In this document: positions 3,799-61,817 of the stretch, piece by piece
How positions within the stretch are numbered: the stretch's first letter is position 1
Layout: each line of letters starts with the position of its first letter
Assembly (NCBI GenBank): GCA_030145245.1
Contig: JAQYWC010000053.1
Span: forward strand, 62,001 to 126,000
DNA length: 64,000 nt
Direction: 5' to 3'
From: Desulfobacterium sp.
GTDB lineage: Bacteria; Desulfobacterota; Desulfobacteria; Desulfobacterales; Desulfobacteraceae
Program-made: the position numbers and the translations under genes
Notes under the pieces: generated by a model
What the model was told of the DNA's origin: nothing
The model's database searches: none
What the model saw: only the letters and a program-made list of their open reading frames with translations

Positions 3799-5280
3799 TT
3801 ATACCTCTAAAATGGCCCTGATCTCCTGGTTTATGCTCGTCTTAAGCGCTTTGATGTCGCCGGCCATGTTGTCCCCCTCCGCCCGGTCCAGGAGCCTGAA
3901 AAAGAGATCCAGCAGGTAGGTGTTGGCCTGCTTGGAGACCCTTGACTCCTCCTTGGCAAAGTGCACGGGAGAGTCGGGATCTCCCATGCTTCTGAGAATG
4001 ATGTGGCAGGCCGTCACCACAAGTTTCGACATCCATTTTACTCCTTTATCTATAAAGGTCACCTCCCCTTCGAATCCAAAGAGGCCGCTTTTGACCAGGC
4101 GGCCGGCCTGTTCAAACTCTGTGTAGGCAGCGGTTCCCTTGAGCACGATCTGGCAGTGGCACAGGAGGTTGGCTGTTCTTTCCAGGCGGTCCAGGAGGTT
4201 GTTTGCCATCAAAAAGTCGATGTTGTTCCTCAGATCCGGGAGGGTTGCGTCCTGGACAAACATGAGAAACCCCACCTCAGGCTCGATGCCGTGTCGCCGG
4301 CACAGGTCAATGGCATCTGTCCCCTGGGAGGGCCCGGCGCTTTTGTTGATCTTTCCCAGCACCTGGGCCGATCCGCTCTCGATGCCCATGAGAAGGGAGG
4401 TGAACCCTGCTTCCACAAGGTGGTGGAGGATTTCGTCGTCAAGGTCAGATGGCCGGGTTTCCATGCCAAAGCGGATCTTCATGGGCTTGATCAGCGCCAT
4501 GAGTTGGAGTATCCGCTCTTTTCCCCTTTTGCCGGGCCCGATGAAATTGGGATCCGTAAAGTAGAACTCCCGTGCGCCCTGGTCCACAAGGGTTTGCATC
4601 TCCAATGCGATCGCTTCCGGGGTGCGGCCCCGCCACAGTGGGCCCTGGTTGTAAAACGAGGGCACGGGGCAGAAGCTGCAATGGTTGTAACAGCCCCGGC
4701 TTCCAAGGATGGACACCGTGCCTTCAAGGGAGGGCCGCAGGGGAACCGGGAAGATGTCGGGATCTTTTTCAGGCGCTCTCAACTGGAAGGCGTTGGGATC
4801 AAGGGCGCTGTTCAGGGCAAGCCCCGGAATGCCGGTGATGGTTCCTGTTTCCTTAAGGGATGAAGCCAGGGTAACCAGGGTGTGCTCAAACTCTCCCACG
4901 GCAATGGAGTCCACCTCCTTGGCACTCGCAAGGATCTCCTGGGAAACCAGGGTGGGAAAGAAGCCGAACAGGTTGATGTGGCCGGAAAATCCCCGGGCCC
5001 TGAGGCGGGTAAAGAGATCGAACAGCCGTGGGGTGTGCTCCCAGAAGTAGACGGCGTTGACGCACAACAGGTCGGGATCAAGATCCAGGATTTCGGTTTC
5101 GGCCCGCTGAAAATTCCATCTTTGGCCGGCAGCGTCCATGAAGCAGGTGTCAAACCCTTTGGATTCAAGCATGGATGCGGCATAGCCGCCCATGAGGCAG
5201 GACCAGAGGGGGGTGTTGGCGATGTCGTTGAACCGTTTCTCCGAGATCATTCTCGGGTGTTCAAGTACCAGGATCTTCAT
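3799..5280 (-). CDS. B12-binding radical SAM protein (BzaD/BzaE-like candidate)
   Basis: A 493-residue protein with an N-terminal Rossmann-like cobalamin-binding domain (about 1-150) and a radical SAM core whose cluster motif is CYNHCSFC (Cys197, Cys201, Cys204). The frame is open further upstream, but the chosen ATG gives the usual MKILVLEHPR beta strand and overlaps the stop of the preceding gene by four bases (ATGA), implying translational coupling. It is the last gene of the riboswitch operon. Family members methylate unactivated carbons or rearrange rings. With its sister gene and the O-methyltransferase it resembles the bzaD/bzaE pair of anaerobic dimethylbenzimidazole synthesis; this assignment is inferred from context. 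Confidence 0.75.
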   Translation of the reverse strand: MKILVLEHPRMISEKRFNDIANTPLWSCLMGGYAASMLESKGFDTCFMDAAGQRWNFQRAETEILDLDPDLLCVNAVYFWEHTPRLFDLFTRLRARGFSGHINLFGFFPTLVSQEILASAKEVDSIAVGEFEHTLVTLASSLKETGTITGIPGLALNSALDPNAFQLRAPEKDPDIFPVPLRPSLEGTVSILGSRGCYNHCSFCPVPSFYNQGPLWRGRTPEAIALEMQTLVDQGAREFYFTDPNFIGPGKRGKERILQLMALIKPMKIRFGMETRPSDLDDEILHHLVEAGFTSLLMGIESGSAQVLGKINKSAGPSQGTDAIDLCRRHGIEPEVGFLMFVQDATLPDLRNNIDFLMANNLLDRLERTANLLCHCQIVLKGTAAYTEFEQAGRLVKSGLFGFEGEVTFIDKGVKWMSKLVVTACHIILRSMGDPDSPVHFAKEESRVSKQANTYLLDLFFRLLDRAEGDNMAGDIKALKTSINQEIRAILEV

Positions 5281-6608
5281 TGTGCCTCCATGGGAAGTTT
5301 CAGCCGGGAAAAGACCCCGGCCTTGTGGCATCGTGCCTCGAGTTCGTGGAGCAGATGGGCATGGGGTTCCGGGTTGTGGTACACGGGATAGAGCAGATCC
5401 GTGTCCGCAGCCAGGGCCCCGGATTTTATCAGCCGTTTTGTCATGGGCGCGCCGGGATAGAGCCGCACATGGTTGAAGATCACCGCCCCCAGGTTGCCGG
5501 CGCCGGCATGGATTGCAAGTATCCGGTCCAGGGTTTCTACTGTCTCGTGTCTCTCCTGGTCTTCCTCTCCTGGCAGGTTGAGCAGAAAATGGCACATGGT
5601 GAGGATGCCGTTGTCCGCCGTGAGTCTTGCGGCATCAAAGAGGTCCTGCTTGGTCATTTGCTTGTTCAACAGTTTCAGTCCGTGGTCGGTGAGGCTGTCC
5701 CCTGAGAAGTAGATGGCCACGCAACCGGCCTTTTGGGCAAGTTCAAGGTTCTCCCGGGTGATGGAGTCCTCCCGGAAGAATCCGGTCCAGGAAAGATCCA
5801 GGTTTCGGTGGATAAGTTCCCGGCAGAGGGCTTCAAAATGCTCCCGGGGACGGTTCACCACGGAATCGGTGAAGTGGAAGAGCTTGATCCCGAACCGCTG
5901 GTTCAGGCAAGCCATCTCGTCCGCAATTTTGGAAGGACTGCGCAGGCGCATGCCGCAGCCCCCGAGAAAGGGGTAGAGACAGTAACCGCACCAGAGGTCG
6001 CACCCCCGTTTGCCTTCGATGCCCACAGCTGCGATATAGGCGTTGCCCTGGGTGTAGGAGAGGGGCGGGAAGGCGTCCACATCCATGGGGGGCAGTTCGT
6101 CCATGGAGAGCCTTGGTCCCATGGGGTTTTCCACGATACCGTCACTGTTTCGCCATAGAATTCCGGGGATGGTGCCCGGATCCAGATTGGGTTCAAACAG
6201 GCGTGGAAAGATCAGCTCTCCCTCTCCCTTGAGGCCCATGTCAATCTCCGGCACCTCCTCCATGAGCCGTCTTGCAAACAGGGAAAAGGCAGGGCCACCA
6301 GCCAGGATTTTTGCCTGTGGGGCCAGGGTTCTTGCAAGGGCCGCCCCGGTCCTGAGGGAGGAGAGATAGGAGGCCTGGTGGCCGGCCAGGGGGTCGAGGT
6401 TTCGAAAGGAGAGGGCAATGGCGTCGGGTTGAAACTCCTCGATCTTCTGTTTCAGGTCGGGCCAGGGATCCATGGCGATGTTCATGTCCAGCACCTGTTT
6501 ATCGTGATGTGTGGGCAGGGTGCCTGACAGCCTGGACAGGCCTAAGGGATATACCCGTTCCCCGGCACCCAGGTGGGAGGTGGGAAGTTGTACCAGCAAT
6601 ATTTTCAT
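5277..6608 (-). CDS. B12-binding radical SAM protein (BzaD/BzaE-like candidate)
   Basis: A 443-residue protein with an N-terminal cobalamin-binding-type domain (about 1-145, including ILAGGPAFS and KGEGELIFPRL) and a radical SAM domain with CDLWCGYC (Cys203, Cys207, Cys210). It is not a close copy of the following radical SAM protein, so the two probably act at different positions or steps. It starts six bases after the methyltransferase stop, with GGAG in the end of that gene as ribosome binding site, and overlaps the next gene by four bases. The specific reaction is unknown; C-methylation of an aromatic precursor of the B12 lower ligand is the leading hypothesis. Confidence 0.75.
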   Translation of the reverse strand: MKILLVQLPTSHLGAGERVYPLGLSRLSGTLPTHHDKQVLDMNIAMDPWPDLKQKIEEFQPDAIALSFRNLDPLAGHQASYLSSLRTGAALARTLAPQAKILAGGPAFSLFARRLMEEVPEIDMGLKGEGELIFPRLFEPNLDPGTIPGILWRNSDGIVENPMGPRLSMDELPPMDVDAFPPLSYTQGNAYIAAVGIEGKRGCDLWCGYCLYPFLGGCGMRLRSPSKIADEMACLNQRFGIKLFHFTDSVVNRPREHFEALCRELIHRNLDLSWTGFFREDSITRENLELAQKAGCVAIYFSGDSLTDHGLKLLNKQMTKQDLFDAARLTADNGILTMCHFLLNLPGEEDQERHETVETLDRILAIHAGAGNLGAVIFNHVRLYPGAPMTKRLIKSGALAADTDLLYPVYHNPEPHAHLLHELEARCHKAGVFSRLKLPMEAQ

Positions 6609-6614
6609 CTGTGA

Positions 6615-8141
6615 TTACTCCAGGACCAGAAGCCCGATATATTTGACATAGTTATGTTTCTCCTGAACAGGGGTGAGACTGAATCCTGCGTTCCGGGCCG
6701 TTGTGTAGACATCGATGCCCGAGGCTTCCATGGCCGGCCGGGCCCGGTCCGGGTGACGGCAGATGCCGGTGTCCGGGCAGGAGGGGCAGACGGGACAGGG
6801 GCCTGCCCCGAACACGAACGCCTTGTGGAACCCTGCCAGAAAGGCGGTTTTTTCAAGTTTGAGCAGTTGTTGGTGGAACGACCTGCCCGGGGGCGCTCCC
6901 TGGACCAGGATGGCCCTGGTGTAGCTGTCGAGCATGGTCCGGGTGGTATCATGGTCTACGGTCCGGGGCGGGCATTGGAGGTTGTTGCCGAATCCGGCAC
7001 AGCCAAATTGGCACTTCATCCTCACCCAGGGGGCCGTGATCACCTGGTCCGGAGCAAGGGGAACGGCCCTGTCAAACCCGATTGAAAGGGCCATGTCGCA
7101 CAGGTTCTCCTGAAACCCCTTGAGGGTGCCGCTGCCCCTTGCCACCATGACGGAGGTGTCCGTGGTAAGATCAATGGTCTCCACCGGGGCAACCCCCAGC
7201 TCTTCAAGCCAGGCCCCGATGGTGGCGGTTGGGTGGCAGGCGCCGTTAAAGGTGTTGAGCATCATGGTGATATCGTAGAGCGCGCCTTTCTGGGGGGATC
7301 TGCCGGCGCGGTCCGGGAAATAGTCGTGGATTACGAGCATACCGTCTGGTTTGAGTAGGGAAACGGCCCGTTGGAGGAGCTCTTTTGCTTCATCCGGGCC
7401 ATAGGCATGGAGAAAGTTGCTCAACAGGATCAGGCCGAACTGTTGGTGGAATTCATGGTTCCTGAAATCCCCGGACATGGGGGTGATGTTCTCCCAGGAG
7501 GTCTTGTCAGGATAGATCTCCCGGGCCGCTTCAATCACCTCCTCAAGGTCGAAGAGCACGGCATCCGTGCCCGGACATTTTGCCTGGACCGCCCGGGTCA
7601 GGCTGCCCGATCCGCCGCCCACATCCAGGATCGGGCCCGTCACATGCTCCCTTGCCATAAGAGCGGCAATCTCCGGGGCCTTCTGTTTCACCAGGGTGTC
7701 CATGGCTTTCACATAGCTGCGGTTGCGTTCCTTGTAGCCGGGCGCCTTTGCCTCCGGCCGCTCCTTGCCCGAGACCTTGTCGAAAAGTTTTTCCCAGTTG
7801 GGCGCCATGTACTTGCGGTAGAGGAAAAACGCCCCCATGTATCCTTCCTTGTCCGGTACGAGAAAGAGGGAGGAGACCTGGGCGTTGTACCAGTGGTCCC
7901 GGTCATTGCAGACCAGGGCCATGCGTTCCATGGCCCTGAGCAGTCGAAACAGCTCGGACTCGTTGCAATCCATGGCATTGGCAAGGTCGGGAAGTGTGGA
8001 GATCCCCTGGTCAAGGAACTTGAAGATCTTAAGCTCCAGGGCGGCAAACAGCACCTGGGAATACCAGTAGGCCGTGGACAGATCTTCCAGGTATTGGAAA
8101 TCGTGATGGGCCGGGTCAGCGTTTTTGAAACCATTGTTCAT
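6615..8141 (-). CDS. O-methyltransferase fused to DUF2284 metal-binding domain (BzaC-like candidate)
   Basis: A 508-residue fusion. Residues about 15-100 form the winged-helix dimerisation domain of plant-type (family 2) O-methyltransferases. About 165-330 is the SAM-binding fold with ILDVGGGSG at 171-179 and the late motif GMLVIHDYFPD. From about 340 to the end is a DUF2284-type cysteine-rich domain (KCQFGC, NLQCPP, then GPCPVCPSCPDTGIC), expected to bind metal or an Fe-S cluster. It lies in the middle of the cobalamin-riboswitch operon with six-base gaps on both sides. BzaC of anaerobic benzimidazole synthesis is an O-methyltransferase, so a role in methylating a hydroxybenzimidazole is plausible. 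The DUF2284 fusion is unexplained. Confidence 0.75.
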   Translation of the reverse strand: MNNGFKNADPAHHDFQYLEDLSTAYWYSQVLFAALELKIFKFLDQGISTLPDLANAMDCNESELFRLLRAMERMALVCNDRDHWYNAQVSSLFLVPDKEGYMGAFFLYRKYMAPNWEKLFDKVSGKERPEAKAPGYKERNRSYVKAMDTLVKQKAPEIAALMAREHVTGPILDVGGGSGSLTRAVQAKCPGTDAVLFDLEEVIEAAREIYPDKTSWENITPMSGDFRNHEFHQQFGLILLSNFLHAYGPDEAKELLQRAVSLLKPDGMLVIHDYFPDRAGRSPQKGALYDITMMLNTFNGACHPTATIGAWLEELGVAPVETIDLTTDTSVMVARGSGTLKGFQENLCDMALSIGFDRAVPLAPDQVITAPWVRMKCQFGCAGFGNNLQCPPRTVDHDTTRTMLDSYTRAILVQGAPPGRSFHQQLLKLEKTAFLAGFHKAFVFGAGPCPVCPSCPDTGICRHPDRARPAMEASGIDVYTTARNAGFSLTPVQEKHNYVKYIGLLVLE

Positions 8142-8147
8142 GGCGTA

Positions 8148-10028
8148 TTATCCCTTTACCACTGTGAGAATTTCGGTGTAGGCACAGGAGAGCTCCTGTT
8201 TCACCCGCTCCATACTGTCGGGTTTGGCTTCCGCCTCCAGCCACAGGGTGGCGCTGGTTTCTCCCCGGGTGACCGACACGCAGGAGAGGATGTCCGGGTG
8301 GGTGATCCGCCGGACCGATTCGAGTCCTGACACCGACACCCAGTGTTCCCCTGAGTTTTGAAGGCCCTTTACAAAGTTTTTCCACTCAAGGGTGCCAAGG
8401 AGGTCGCAGCTCAGGTGGAGGATGGTGCTGTTGCCCCGGGCACGTTCCTGGATGGTGTCCATGATTTCCGGGTTTTCCATGGCCCTGGCCGGTTTTACCA
8501 TCTCCATGTCCGTGGTCATTCGTTCAGCTTCCTTTCTGAAGAACAGGGCCAGCCTGACCTGGGAGGTGGGGGCTGTCGCAAGGGAGACGCCCACAAACAC
8601 AAGGCCGCTTAATGCCATGGATACAATCACCCCGTGTCCCATGAGCACCGGGTGGATGGATTCCAGGTACGGGGGGGCCATGGGCGGCGTCTTTGCAAGA
8701 TCCACGATCACCAGGGCGGACTGGGCCATGAACCCGGTGACAAGGGAGGCCACGGCGCCTTGTCCTGTGGCCCGCTTCCAGTACAATCCGCCCATGAGGG
8801 CAAAGAAGTAGGAGGCGCTGGCAATAAAGGTGGCGATGTGGATGGCGTCGATGATGGAGTTGATGAAGAAGGAGCCCAGGGTGGCAAAGGCGATGATGAT
8901 CAGCACGCTTACCCGGTTGACCAGAAGCATCTGCTTCATGGTGGCCCCGGGGTGAAGATAGCGCTGGAAGATGTCCCTGGAGATGCAGGAGGCCCCGGAG
9001 GTGGCAAAGGTGTCTGTGCAGGACATGGCTGCCGTGGCAAGGCCCACGGCGCAGAGGGCCAGGGTAAACCCGGAGAAGCTGTGCTCCATGATAAAGGTGA
9101 GAAGGGCGGGTTCGGCCTTGGCCATTCCCATGGGAAATCCAGCGCCTGCAATGTCGGGATAGATGGTGTTAAGCCCTAGGGCCAGGAGGGCGCAGCCGGC
9201 AAACACCACGGCAACGAGAAATGATCCCAGGAACATGCCGTTCCTGGCGGATTTCTCATCCTTTGCCGCCCACACCTTCTGCCACTGGTCCTGTTCCGTG
9301 ATCCAGCCGGGAATGATGGCAAACGAGAAGATCAGTACCATGGGAATGCCGATGGAACAGGGGTTCCACCAGTTGTCGGGCATTGATGTTAAAAGGTCTG
9401 CAACGGGCATGGCTGAGATGGTTCCGGCACTGGTCATCACCATGGCGGCCATGATGAGGACAAAGAGGGTGAGGCAGAAAAACTGGATGATGTCCGTTGC
9501 AATCACGGCGGACAGCCCGCCCATGGTCACGTAGATGGAGACGGCAATGGCTACGATCAGCGCTGAAACCAGGGGGGAGATGTTGTAGAAGGTCGAAAGC
9601 ACCATGGCAAAGCCTTTGATGTCTGCCACGGCAAAGAGGATCATCACAACGGTGATGATGATGGCCACGGGTAGCCGCAGATAGCTGCCGTATCGAAGCT
9701 CCAGGAGTTCGGGCTGGGTAATGGATGGCAGGGCTTTTATCTTCCTGACAAACAGGCCGATGGCGAACAGGGCGATGATATTCGGGGCCACAAACCCCCA
9801 GACAGATCCCATGCCCAGCAGCATGAAAAAGCCGATGACGGCCAGGATGCCGCCGGCGGTGAGCCATGAGGCAGCCGCTGAACAACCAATGGAGAGCACC
9901 CCTGCTTTTTTTCCTGCAAGCCAAAAGTCGGTCTGGGTTTGCTGTCGTTTGTTGAAGTACCACCCCACACTGATGAGCAGGGTGATGTAGGAAAGAAGCA
10001 GGCACAGAAACAGTTGATATGGGTTCAT
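8148..10028 (-). CDS. Sodium:solute symporter (SSS family) with C-terminal extension, B12-riboswitch controlled
   Basis: A 626-residue protein with about 13 hydrophobic segments. It has the SSS-family features TQTDFWLAGKK near the N-terminus, SCSAAASWLTAGG-like segment 2 (here IGCSAAASWLTAGG), and a cation-site region (TAAMSCTDTFATSGASCISRDIF). The last roughly 85 residues (from about 540) form a soluble tail not needed for the transporter fold. The start was chosen because AGGAG lies just upstream of this ATG; the open frame extends 39 codons further into the riboswitch terminator. As first gene behind a cobalamin riboswitch it may import a lower-ligand precursor or a corrinoid-related solute, but the substrate is unknown. 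Confidence 0.85.
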   Translation of the reverse strand: MNPYQLFLCLLLSYITLLISVGWYFNKRQQTQTDFWLAGKKAGVLSIGCSAAASWLTAGGILAVIGFFMLLGMGSVWGFVAPNIIALFAIGLFVRKIKALPSITQPELLELRYGSYLRLPVAIIITVVMILFAVADIKGFAMVLSTFYNISPLVSALIVAIAVSIYVTMGGLSAVIATDIIQFFCLTLFVLIMAAMVMTSAGTISAMPVADLLTSMPDNWWNPCSIGIPMVLIFSFAIIPGWITEQDQWQKVWAAKDEKSARNGMFLGSFLVAVVFAGCALLALGLNTIYPDIAGAGFPMGMAKAEPALLTFIMEHSFSGFTLALCAVGLATAAMSCTDTFATSGASCISRDIFQRYLHPGATMKQMLLVNRVSVLIIIAFATLGSFFINSIIDAIHIATFIASASYFFALMGGLYWKRATGQGAVASLVTGFMAQSALVIVDLAKTPPMAPPYLESIHPVLMGHGVIVSMALSGLVFVGVSLATAPTSQVRLALFFRKEAERMTTDMEMVKPARAMENPEIMDTIQERARGNSTILHLSCDLLGTLEWKNFVKGLQNSGEHWVSVSGLESVRRITHPDILSCVSVTRGETSATLWLEAEAKPDSMERVKQELSCAYTEILTVVKG

Positions 10029-10100
10029 ATCTTCTCCTGTCGGATGATCCCCGTGGCGGGTGCCAGGGAACTCTTCCGAACGATCCAGGTGTGCCGGCAT

Positions 10101-10142
10101 AAAAAAATCCCCAGCCGACACAAAATCAGCACGGGGATTTGC
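10101..10142 (-). terminator. Intrinsic terminator of the cobalamin riboswitch (expression platform)
   Basis: Read on the minus strand, AAATCCCCGTGCTGA pairs with a partner ending in GGGGATTT, followed by a run of T. It sits between the riboswitch aptamer and the symporter start, so cobalamin binding most likely terminates transcription here. Confidence 0.8.
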
Positions 10143-10171
10143 CATCTCTCCGAGAACGGTTGCTTACGCTT

Positions 10172-10375
10172 GTCTGGCAGGTATTCTGACTCGTGGATCA
10201 TCCTACTGGCCGCGTCTTCCCATGCTGGTTCGTCATTGTAACCTGCAGCACAGTGACCGGTTGCGGCGGTCGTCCTCACTCACAGCGGCGGGTCCGTCCC
10301 GGATTTACGCCGGGTTCCCTGCGGAGTCCGGCCTTTTGCCAGACCCTCGACCTTCCCAAAGGAAGGCACCAGAAA
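10172..10375 (-). promoter_or_regulatory. Cobalamin riboswitch upstream of the symporter/methyltransferase/radical SAM operon
   Basis: On the minus strand the element opens with GGTGCCTTCC, contains a B12 box (AGGGAACCCGGCGTAAATCC and the following GACCCGCCGCTGTGA-type segment) and closes with GAGTCAGAATACCTGCC, the standard order of RF00174-type cobalamin riboswitches. A terminator hairpin follows, so the predicted action is repression of the operon when adenosyl- or methylcobalamin is plentiful. Confidence 0.93.
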
Positions 10376-10427
10376 GCTCCTTTTTATTTAAGAGACTGAA
10401 CACACTCGTTGTCCAGATCGTACCTGG

Positions 10428-59359: not shown

Positions 59360-59389
59360 TTGCTTTTTTCTTTTAAACCGGGCTATTAA
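59360..59389 (+). promoter_or_regulatory. Candidate promoter of the riboswitch-receptor transcript
   Basis: TTGCTT (59360-59365), 18-base spacer, TATTAA (59384-59389), ending just before the riboswitch aptamer. The -35 match is weak. Confidence 0.35.
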
Positions 59390-59397
59390 ACATCCAT

Positions 59398-59555
59398 CAG
59401 GTGCTCCCGGAAGGGAGTTAAGAGGGAATTCCGTGTAAACCGGAAACGGGCCCGCCGCTGTATTTGAGGACGAAAGCCGCAAGAGTGCCACTGTTGTTTG
59501 CGTGACGGGAAGGCGCGGTGATTAGGATGAGTCAAGAGTCAGAAAACCTGCCTGA
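59398..59555 (+). promoter_or_regulatory. Cobalamin riboswitch upstream of the TonB-dependent receptor
   Basis: The element opens with GGTGCTCCCGGAAGGGAG, has the B12-box region GAGGGAATTCCGTGTAAACC and GGGCCCGCCGCTGTATT, and closes with GAGTCAGAAAACCTGCCTGA, the standard order of a cobalamin riboswitch. A terminator follows, so corrinoid should switch off receptor synthesis. Confidence 0.95.
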
Positions 59556-59617
59556 TATCATAGGTGTTTTCCCGTGGAAAAAGGAAGCACCGTCAGATCT
59601 TGAGGAAAGACAGGGAT

Positions 59618-59656: not shown

Positions 59657-59690
59657 TCCCGGGCCCCAGGATTTGAAAAGGAGTTCCAAG

Positions 59691-61817
59691 ATGAAAGCAG
59701 GTAGTGTTCTGTCCAGGCTGACAACGGTTTCTCTACTGTCCCTTCTGTTTTTAGGCGGAAGCGTTGGCACTGGCTGGAGTGAAGATGTAAACAACCCGGT
59801 CCATGAGCTTGAAGAGGTGGTTGTCACCGCCACAAACAAGATGAAAGTGGTGGATACCCCCGCCAGTATCTCCATTATCACGGCTGAAGAACTTGAACAG
59901 ATGGGCGCAAACAATATCATTGAGGCGTTGAGGAAAATTCCCGGGGTGGATGACACCAGCGCCAAGGATTCCGCCATCACCATCCGGGGGAACAGGAGCG
60001 CCATGGCCGGAGGTCCTGTGATCCTCATCGACGGCATTCCCCAGAAGGTGGGCGACTACCAGTATGACGAGTTCAGCTTTATCCCGGTCTCCCAGATAGA
60101 GCGGATCGAGGTGCTGCGGTCGGCCGGTATTGCCTACGGACCCGGGGCAGCCCGGGGGGTGATCAACATCATCAGCAAAAAGGGAACCGCAGACAGTGCT
60201 TTTGGGTTTGACGGCGGCGCCTCCTATGGCTCCTGGAACACCCACAACGAATATGCCGGGATCTCCGGCGGACAGAACAGCTGGGATTACTATTTCAACG
60301 CCACCAACTATCATACGGACGGGTATGAGGATGAAGAGACCGACCGGAACTCCGCCCTGTTTCGTCTCGGGTACACGATTCCGGACGGCCCGCGGATCGG
60401 CTTCAAGGGAAATTTTATGAAGCGGGACTCCGATTTTGCCTACGGGTTTGTGAAAAAGGACTGGCACCTGGATAATTATCGCGACAAGAGTCATTTCCCG
60501 GTGAGTGAAACCGATCCGACCCTGTGGTGGCATACGGAAAAAGAGCAGGAGGAGTCCACCCTTGCCCTGGAACTCTCCCAGCGGACCGGCAGCCATTTCT
60601 ACGATGCCTCCCTCTCCTGGACCGGTTATGATGAGGATTACCGGGACCTGCATTACCTCCGGGTGAAACCCAAGAGTATCTACCATGACGATAAACGCCA
60701 GGACTCCTATGCCATGACCGCTTCCGGGGGCTGCCACCTTGATTTTGGCCAGGTAAGCTACACCCCCACCTTGGGCGTTAATTTCGAGCAGATGAAGTTC
60801 GACCAGACCCGGGCCTATCCCAACGATACCGGCAAGAACACCGACAAGTACGATTTCGACATTGACCAGAAGCAGTATGGACTGTTCTGGGACAACGATT
60901 TCCTCTTTGCCGGGCAATGGGGGTTGAAGGCGGGTGGTCGTGTGGACCGGGTGGAGGTGGAGTTTGAGGACAAGGTGCCCACCCGGGTGGATGAGTCCAC
61001 CACCATGTTCAGCTGGATCATTGCCCCGGGCTACCGTTTTTCTGACCGGGGGTCTGTTTATCTTTCCGCTGCCAGAAATTATTGGTATCCCACCCCCCGC
61101 TACTATGCCTGGGCCGCTGAAAAGGGAGAGGATATCAACCGCCCCGAAGACCTGAAACCCGAGGAGTCCATCACCTATGAGATCGGGTACAAGCACATGT
61201 TTTCCGAGATGCTGACCATCAATCTCACCACCTATTATGCTTTTTACAATGACAAGTTCTCCACGGTGTACGCGCCTGGCAGCACCAAATCAAAGGGGCA
61301 GAAGAATGTGGGGGATGCCGAGGCCAAGGGGATCGAGCTGGAGGTGGACGGCCGGTTGAATCAATATGTCGGTTACCGCTTTTCCGGAACCCTCCAGGAT
61401 ATCGAGTGGACCTCCGGCGAGATGAGTGTGTACATGCACCCGTCCGACAAAAAGGAGATCCAGGAGCTTGACGGGTATCAGATCTACGATATTCCCGAGG
61501 TGAGCTATGTTTTCGGGCTTGATTTCTATCCCTTGGAGGGGCTCAAGCTCAGTGCCGACGTCAACTACACCGGATCCAAGTATGTGGATTACCTGAACCG
61601 CATCAAGTATGACAACAAGACCACCCTGGATCTGTATCTTTCCTACACCCGGAATAACTGGAGATACTGGATCAGCGGCAAGAACGTGTTTGACGAGGAG
61701 ATCGAACGGGTGAGCAACAGCACCGGTAACCTGACCGGTCCGGATGGGGAGTATGACAACGCCTATTATGTCCGGGACGGCGCCTATGTTGAGGCGGGTG
61801 TGAACTACAGGTTCTAA
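59691..61817 (+). CDS. TonB-dependent outer-membrane receptor, probably for corrinoids (BtuB-like)
   Basis: A 708-residue outer-membrane protein. The ATG after AAAAGGAG gives a signal peptide (MKAGSVLSRLTTVSLLSLL, cleavage near GWSED). ELEEVVVTATNKM is the TonB-box/plug start, the plug has SIITAEELEQMGANNIIEAL and VLIDGIPQKVG-like segments, and the rest is a 22-strand-type barrel ending in the C-terminal signature AYVEAGVNYRF with a terminal Phe. The riboswitch makes cobalamin or another corrinoid the likely ligand. No btuFCD genes follow. Confidence 0.9.
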   Translation: MKAGSVLSRLTTVSLLSLLFLGGSVGTGWSEDVNNPVHELEEVVVTATNKMKVVDTPASISIITAEELEQMGANNIIEALRKIPGVDDTSAKDSAITIRGNRSAMAGGPVILIDGIPQKVGDYQYDEFSFIPVSQIERIEVLRSAGIAYGPGAARGVINIISKKGTADSAFGFDGGASYGSWNTHNEYAGISGGQNSWDYYFNATNYHTDGYEDEETDRNSALFRLGYTIPDGPRIGFKGNFMKRDSDFAYGFVKKDWHLDNYRDKSHFPVSETDPTLWWHTEKEQEESTLALELSQRTGSHFYDASLSWTGYDEDYRDLHYLRVKPKSIYHDDKRQDSYAMTASGGCHLDFGQVSYTPTLGVNFEQMKFDQTRAYPNDTGKNTDKYDFDIDQKQYGLFWDNDFLFAGQWGLKAGGRVDRVEVEFEDKVPTRVDESTTMFSWIIAPGYRFSDRGSVYLSAARNYWYPTPRYYAWAAEKGEDINRPEDLKPEESITYEIGYKHMFSEMLTINLTTYYAFYNDKFSTVYAPGSTKSKGQKNVGDAEAKGIELEVDGRLNQYVGYRFSGTLQDIEWTSGEMSVYMHPSDKKEIQELDGYQIYDIPEVSYVFGLDFYPLEGLKLSADVNYTGSKYVDYLNRIKYDNKTTLDLYLSYTRNNWRYWISGKNVFDEEIERVSNSTGNLTGPDGEYDNAYYVRDGAYVEAGVNYRF

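Follow-up and report, generated by a model that had tools for sequence, protein, structure and literature searches.

A cobalamin-riboswitch operon of a Desulfobacterium that probably encodes the distal, bzaC-bzaD-bzaE half of an anaerobic cobamide lower-ligand pathway together with a symporter

The stretch of DNA analysed, from here on called the window, comprises 64,000 nucleotides from the genome of a Desulfobacterium sp. (GenBank assembly GCA_030145245.1; 6.4 Mb in 83 contigs, of which four others are cited below as C27, C33, C53 and C62). On its minus strand, from 10388 to 3799 in the window coordinates used throughout, lies an operon in which a cobalamin riboswitch precedes the genes for a symporter, a methyltransferase and two radical SAM proteins (rSAM1 and rSAM2), the last three in the order bzaC-bzaD-bzaE of the anaerobic benzimidazole (bza) genes. 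Its parts are:

10159 to 10388, minus strand: cobalamin riboswitch aptamer, RF00174 (100.6 bits against a gathering score of 31.5; full model, 1-189)
about 10101 to 10140 (hand-counted), minus strand: terminator-like hairpin with U-run, seen in the fold, likely the expression platform
8148 to 10028, minus strand: SSS-family Na+/solute symporter of 626 residues, candidate benzimidazole importer (Pfam SSF 102 bits, cut-off 22.8)
6615 to 8141, minus strand: BzaC-like O-methyltransferase fused to DUF2284, 508 residues (Methyltransf_2 69.5 bits, DUF2284 123 bits)
5277 to 6608, minus strand: BzaD-like B12-binding radical SAM protein, rSAM1, 443 residues (Radical_SAM 54.9 bits, B12-binding 46.3 bits)
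3799 to 5280, minus strand: BzaE-like radical SAM protein, rSAM2, 493 residues (Radical_SAM 71.6 bits), whose start overlaps the bzaD stop

An earlier, sequence-only reading had placed a cobalamin riboswitch with a terminator ahead of a symporter and a family-2 O-methyltransferase, all of which were recovered. The leader from 10160 to 10080 (81 nt) folds with −31.7 kcal/mol (z = −2.9), 2 of 200 shuffled sequences folding equally well; the hairpin is absent from the list of a consensus terminator scan, probably because its stem is bulged. By eye, the leader hairpin of the window operon is like those in the leaders of the bzaF-like gene on C53 (see below) and of bzaF in G169, a genome of the same genus, with AAATCCC to GGGATTTTTTT; in the window and C53 leaders it comes after GGAGAGATGG. 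From the riboswitch match and the like arrangement in relatives, the operon is probably under cobalamin control. For the symporter the start at 10028 is preferred; the alternative start listed, 10145, falls within the leader. The interval 5277-10375, given earlier as the whole operon, proved too short, since the second radical SAM gene (5280-3799) falls outside it, and the DUF2284 domain of the methyltransferase had gone unmentioned. That neither bzaA, bzaB or bzaF nor cobT lies inside the operon was borne out; a bzaF-like gene and cobT were both found in a second riboswitch operon, on C53.

The resemblance of the three enzymes to BzaC, BzaD and BzaE had been proposed from the letters alone, their placement in a tree being the check set beforehand. 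When the 340 genomes of the class were scored with TIGR04385, the equivalog model of BzaD, one protein reached 635 bits (from G043, the sole BzaD over the NCBI cut-off among them), 33 including that of the window genome lay in a band at 343-424 bits, and the rest scored 285 bits or less, among these some fragments of band proteins (G180, G222). The next-best match in the window genome had 203.6 bits, and a wider search of the phylum found no canonical BzaD over the cut-off (0/395). In a 46-row tree, one clade (support 100/98) unites 22 band proteins with the BzaD of G043, apart from the nearest outsiders; the other rows are rSAM2 proteins plus six homologues taken from three loci. The tree carries a long-branch warning that has both G043 proteins among the long branches. 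The reference in this check was G043, a stand-in that passes the canonical model, in place of the named proteins of Eubacterium limosum and Moorella thermoacetica. rSAM1 belongs to the sister group of canonical BzaD, yet it failed the formal equivalog test. It contains both a B12-binding and a radical SAM domain, and the cysteines of its CxxxCxxC motif (C203, C207 and C210) are invariant in all five aligned proteins. Elsewhere in the class, G005 gave a partial TIGR04385 match of 226 bits.

In G043 the canonical BzaD is flanked upstream by a methyltransferase-DUF2284 fusion and downstream by a radical SAM protein, co-linear with the window; on account of this co-linearity the window fusion and rSAM2 can be assigned the places of BzaC and BzaE. 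The window methyltransferase is 35-36% identical to its counterpart in G043, with Methyltransf_2 and DUF2284 in both, an architecture also present in G454, a genome of another class. The two rSAM2 proteins are 36-37% identical, all the aligned proteins share the radical-SAM cysteines, and the G043 protein nests, on a long branch, in the 17-row rSAM2 group of the tree. The fusion protein is accordingly named BzaC-like here and is predicted to methylate 5-hydroxybenzimidazole. A structure model of rSAM2 of low confidence (predicted local distance difference test, pLDDT, 66) matched B12 radical SAM structures, the right fold family, in a weak manner with a root-mean-square deviation of 15.7-18.5, and that of the BzaC-like protein (pLDDT 63) was too poor for the DUF2284 domain; PDB sequence searches listed no entry named BzaF, BzaC or BzaD. 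The BzaC-like frames of three relatives (L086, L090 and L092, from G192, G268 and G054) are longer, with 553-629 residues against 508, and in the alignment that of L092 has insertions inside the methyltransferase part.

The bzaC-, bzaD- and bzaE-like genes, together called the cassette, are not a chance assembly, because their proteins are conserved, with 57-88% identity, in loci of relatives, seven of which were compared, several of them cut by contig ends. At one of the fetched loci, L013 of 'Desulfobacterium sp. isolate MAG9', all four operon proteins share 84-88% identity with those of the window, and the three-enzyme cassette is present, whole or in part, at six more loci from five metagenome-assembled genomes (three contigs carry two identifiers each: L013 = L067, L014 = L069 and L016 = L080). 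In every fetched cassette locus uncut by a contig end the three genes stand together in canonical order. With the window there are 33 cassette loci (32 fetched), and in nine of these 33 genomes, the window genome being counted, bzaF and/or cobT lie directly upstream in the same run (L065, L072, L075, L084, L086, L090, L092, L093 and L095), some of the other loci being cut upstream; some relatives have bzaF-cobT-bzaC-bzaD-bzaE in one run, and G454 has bzaF-bzaC-bzaD-bzaE. rSAM2 is found at E 1e-60 in 35 of the 340 genomes and rSAM1 (the band plus G043) in 34, the union being 37; the two sets differ in G049, G070 (rSAM2 cut by contig end), G180, G222 (rSAM1 fragments) and G258. Four scans found a cobalamin riboswitch at 2/7 cassette loci (four of these seven cut at or near the cassette), 2/3, 7/8 and 4/10. 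Stand-alone proteins also occur beside the cassette: one (L017:4416-5036, the same gene as L077:11703-12323) matches the DUF2284 part (residues 355-501) and another (L073:690-1316) matches the BzaC-like fusion.

A search of the genome for a 5-hydroxybenzimidazole synthase and cobT turned up two ThiC-family genes, on C33 and C53 (638 and 552.8 bits with the ThiC model, cut-off 410), of which the C53 gene stands between a cobalamin riboswitch of its own and cobT. This riboswitch-bzaF-cobT arrangement, which recurs in relatives, supports the earlier suggestion of a separately made benzimidazole for the window genome. Orthologues of the C53 gene are present in 94 of the 340 genomes, at least one as a fragment, and are set off by at least 60% identity against at most 46% among the ThiC matches listed. 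At E 1e-100 this bzaF clade is found in 29 of the 37 cassette genomes versus 65 of the 303 others (Fisher p = 1e-11, uncorrected for kinship). The bzaF match of G244 is reported to contain a stop. Aerobic synthesis of dimethylbenzimidazole (DMB) was rejected, the window genome having no BluB over the cut-off (150 bits; best 49 bits).

From these findings we propose, with a probability of about 0.8, that the window operon, separate from the rest of the pathway and joined by a symporter gene, supplies bzaC-bzaD-bzaE, the distal half of anaerobic lower-ligand synthesis for cobamides; on present sequence evidence it is quite likely that the three window genes are bzaC, bzaD and bzaE, and DMB is put forward as the end product with somewhat lower confidence. 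The bzaF/cobT linkage in relatives, the co-located riboswitches and the like leader hairpins argue for one pathway spread over two riboswitch operons. BzaF (C53) would convert the purine intermediate 5-aminoimidazole ribotide (AIR) to 5-hydroxybenzimidazole, BzaC (window) would O-methylate the latter, BzaD and BzaE, probably corrinoid-using radical SAM enzymes, would methylate the ring further to dimethylbenzimidazole, and CobT (C53) would activate the base for attachment. When B12 is plentiful both operons would probably be shut off via cobalamin riboswitch and terminator.

Several results weigh against this assignment. With 410.5 bits rSAM1 remains under the curated TIGR04385 cut-off of 450, and no NCBIfam model named BzaC or BzaE matched the window proteins. 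Both radical SAM proteins had been claimed to bind B12; this stands for rSAM1 and is no more than likely for rSAM2, in which Pfam finds no B12-binding domain (in G043 the protein in the BzaE position has a sub-threshold score of 24.6, cut-off 32.1). At the cassette of G043 no riboswitch reached the gathering score, though the bzaF and cobT loci of that genome, which lie elsewhere, have one cobalamin riboswitch each. NCBIfam labels the C53 protein ThiC, the BzaB model gives it 483 bits (cut-off 700), and it is read as BzaF from its riboswitch, its linkage to cobT and the gap between the clades. Finally, bzaF was not found at E 1e-100 in 8 of the 37 cassette genomes. Six of these eight involve contig ends, likely gaps or incomplete assemblies: G187 was dismissed as a case because the AsnS gene that neighbours bzaF-cobT was also not found and its sole CobT match lies in a 719-residue frame like the dehydrogenase fusion, which makes an assembly gap likely, and G070, G177, G231, G328 and G331 were not accepted as losses owing to fragments, contig ends or neither gene being found.

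The low BzaD score, the separate clade and the 36-37% identity of rSAM2 to a protein beside canonical BzaD that is itself on a very long branch would also fit a divergent bza branch in which enzyme specificity has shifted, so that the sister clade could make a benzimidazole other than DMB, for instance 5-methoxy-6-methylbenzimidazole. We consider this unlikely, the gene trio keeping its canonical order in every uncut locus, bzaF or cobT adjoining it in nine genomes and the radical-SAM cysteines being invariant in the aligned proteins. It is far less probable still that the genes are merely bza-like and belong to another B12-linked pathway such as corrinoid-dependent demethylation: at L017 the genes flanking the cassette include, as judged by eye, likely corrinoid methyltransferases, besides the solo DUF2284-like protein, but this is the only one of seven loci examined by eye with such neighbours, in the wider set it is bzaF and cobT that recur beside the cassette, and in G043 the cassette surrounds canonical BzaD. 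The same recurrence of bzaF and cobT disfavours the different aromatic cofactor that the sequence-only reading had offered, for which no support was found. That the C53 protein is a second thiamine-pathway ThiC, as its NCBIfam label would have it, and that benzimidazole synthesis is lacking in this genome, is equally hard to credit, since a separate, higher-scoring ThiC is encoded on C33 and the C53 gene lies under a cobalamin riboswitch with cobT next to it, as in relatives.

The symporter, taken as part of the proposed bzaCDE operon, would most likely import a benzimidazole precursor or a related small molecule. It was found (E 1e-100 or better) in 17 of the 340 genomes, ten with and seven without the cassette, all 17 having the bzaF clade or the cassette (hypergeometric 5e-10, uncorrected for kinship). 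Eight genomes have the order riboswitch-symporter-bzaC (G000, G169, G187, G244, G274, G303, G306 and G332); in G245, from another family, the symporter lies at the other end of the cassette, downstream of bzaE. Stretches around the gene were fetched for the symporter genomes other than G299 and G326; in those of G200, G264 and G292 no riboswitch was found, which weakens the rule that symporter and riboswitch go together. In G215 and G042 (L150 and L151) a cobalamin riboswitch of its own precedes the symporter, and the stretch fetched showed no bza gene.

Two relatives, G225 and G245, have the symporter, bzaCDE and a riboswitch-cobT unit without an intact bzaF: in G225 there is no bzaF match between the riboswitch (6053-6223) and the cobT match from 6316 (L172), and in G245 only an 85-residue N-terminal match (L173:5886-6140) remains between riboswitch and cobT. 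These gene sets suggest benzimidazole import, and on them the earlier idea of an imported benzimidazole is plausible only. They lead to the tentative proposal, to which we give rather less than even odds, that uptake of free benzimidazoles, most likely of 5-hydroxybenzimidazole, is the dedicated task of the symporter, which would be controlled by the B12 riboswitch and, together with BzaCDE, form an anaerobic salvage-and-upgrade system turning 5-hydroxybenzimidazole leaked by neighbours that have only bzaF into DMB, some lineages having already dispensed with their own bzaF. That the operon serves mainly such salvage, with the symporter taking up 5-hydroxybenzimidazole or another benzimidazole of neighbours, is conceivable to the same limited degree; besides the 17 of 17 genomes and the two relatives without intact bzaF, free benzimidazoles are present in environmental samples according to excerpts of PMC4230183. 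Against it, import is not needed in the window genome because bzaF is present, and the link between bzaF loss and symporter (2/2 vs 7/29, p = 0.08) is not significant alone. G225 and G245 are 90% and 93% complete and ThiC was not found in them either, so their bzaF could lie in unassembled parts; in G225, moreover, a contig end falls within the symporter gene. Seven symporter genomes lack the cassette, three (those named above) also a nearby riboswitch, and the relatives of known structure (PDB) that the symporter weakly resembles carry glucose, choline, urea or iodide. In the open-licence literature searched, as far as excerpts reach (among them PMC6461909, PMC8123684, PMC10468695, PMC4230183, PMC9600662, PMC6299228 and PMC10553843), no symporter with bza genes came up.

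The window genome contains 15 cobalamin riboswitches; the genes behind or near twelve were listed and seven of the proteins scanned. A riboswitch-associated CobA scored over its cut-off, and a large chelatase subunit behind a riboswitch on C62 (L026:7219-10974) scored 844.6 with BchH (cut-off 829) and below the CobN cut-offs; a cobaltochelatase-like ATPase and CbiK-like, AcsV-like, BtuC-like and TonB-receptor-like proteins stayed under theirs. Among the seven proteins scanned, CobA and the chelatase-like subunit fit a cobamide maker. The window itself has a second cobalamin riboswitch (59382-59569, 105.4 bits), which precedes the gene (59673-61817) of a 714-residue protein, by eye a TonB-dependent receptor. 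On C27 a second CobT of 714 residues (L022:6234-8378, C27:21233-23377) is fused to a zinc alcohol-dehydrogenase-like domain (DBI_PRT 437 bits, ADH_N 51 bits) and follows a Glycos_transf_3 (TrpD-like) protein; similarly long frames of 705-726 residues with CobT matches occur also in G187, G169 and G215.

If the proposed bzaCDE pathway is right, the 65 genomes with bzaF and without the cassette would stop at 5-hydroxybenzimidazole, whereas sulfate reducers whose BzaD lies under the cut-off would make true vitamin B12 without oxygen; from bzaF alone one would predict 5-hydroxybenzimidazolyl cobamide for them. Predictions of B12 feeding partners in anoxic sediment would change, and there would be a concrete candidate for the carrier of free lower-ligand bases, with two natural cases that have no intact bzaF.

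CblT belongs to a transporter family other than SSS. In CblT-CblS α-ribazole salvage a transporter and a kinase are predicted to exploit activated lower-ligand bases taken from the surroundings (excerpts of PMC6461909); the window operon likewise has a candidate transporter for lower ligands, but this is an SSS symporter beside ligand-modifying enzymes. With other SSS/SSF sodium:solute symporters it shares the Pfam SSF domain and differs from them by its probable cobalamin-riboswitch control and its bza linkage.

Known bza operons are under riboswitch control. Their likeness to the window operon lies in the order bzaC-bzaD-bzaE and in cobalamin as the predicted product, E. limosum and Acetobacterium woodii making cobalamin and having this order, while M. 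thermoacetica has bzaA-bzaB-cobT-bzaC and Geobacter sulfurreducens bzaF and cobT (excerpts of PMC8123684). The window genome differs in that it has no bzaA or bzaB, its bzaF-like gene standing with cobT in the other operon, and in that the window operon adds the symporter. With G. sulfurreducens it has in common a single ThiC paralogue and cobT (excerpts of PMC8123684), the two being neighbours here, behind a cobalamin riboswitch; in G. sulfurreducens the pathway ends with 5-hydroxybenzimidazolyl cobamide, whereas the window genome adds bzaCDE. BzaAB has been mentioned in Seep-SRB1a (excerpts of PMC10553843), and sulfate reducers with bza genes are in themselves no novelty; the novel features are a BzaD clade that stays under the curated cut-off (410 vs 450 bits), the distribution of the genes over two riboswitch operons and the SSS symporter.

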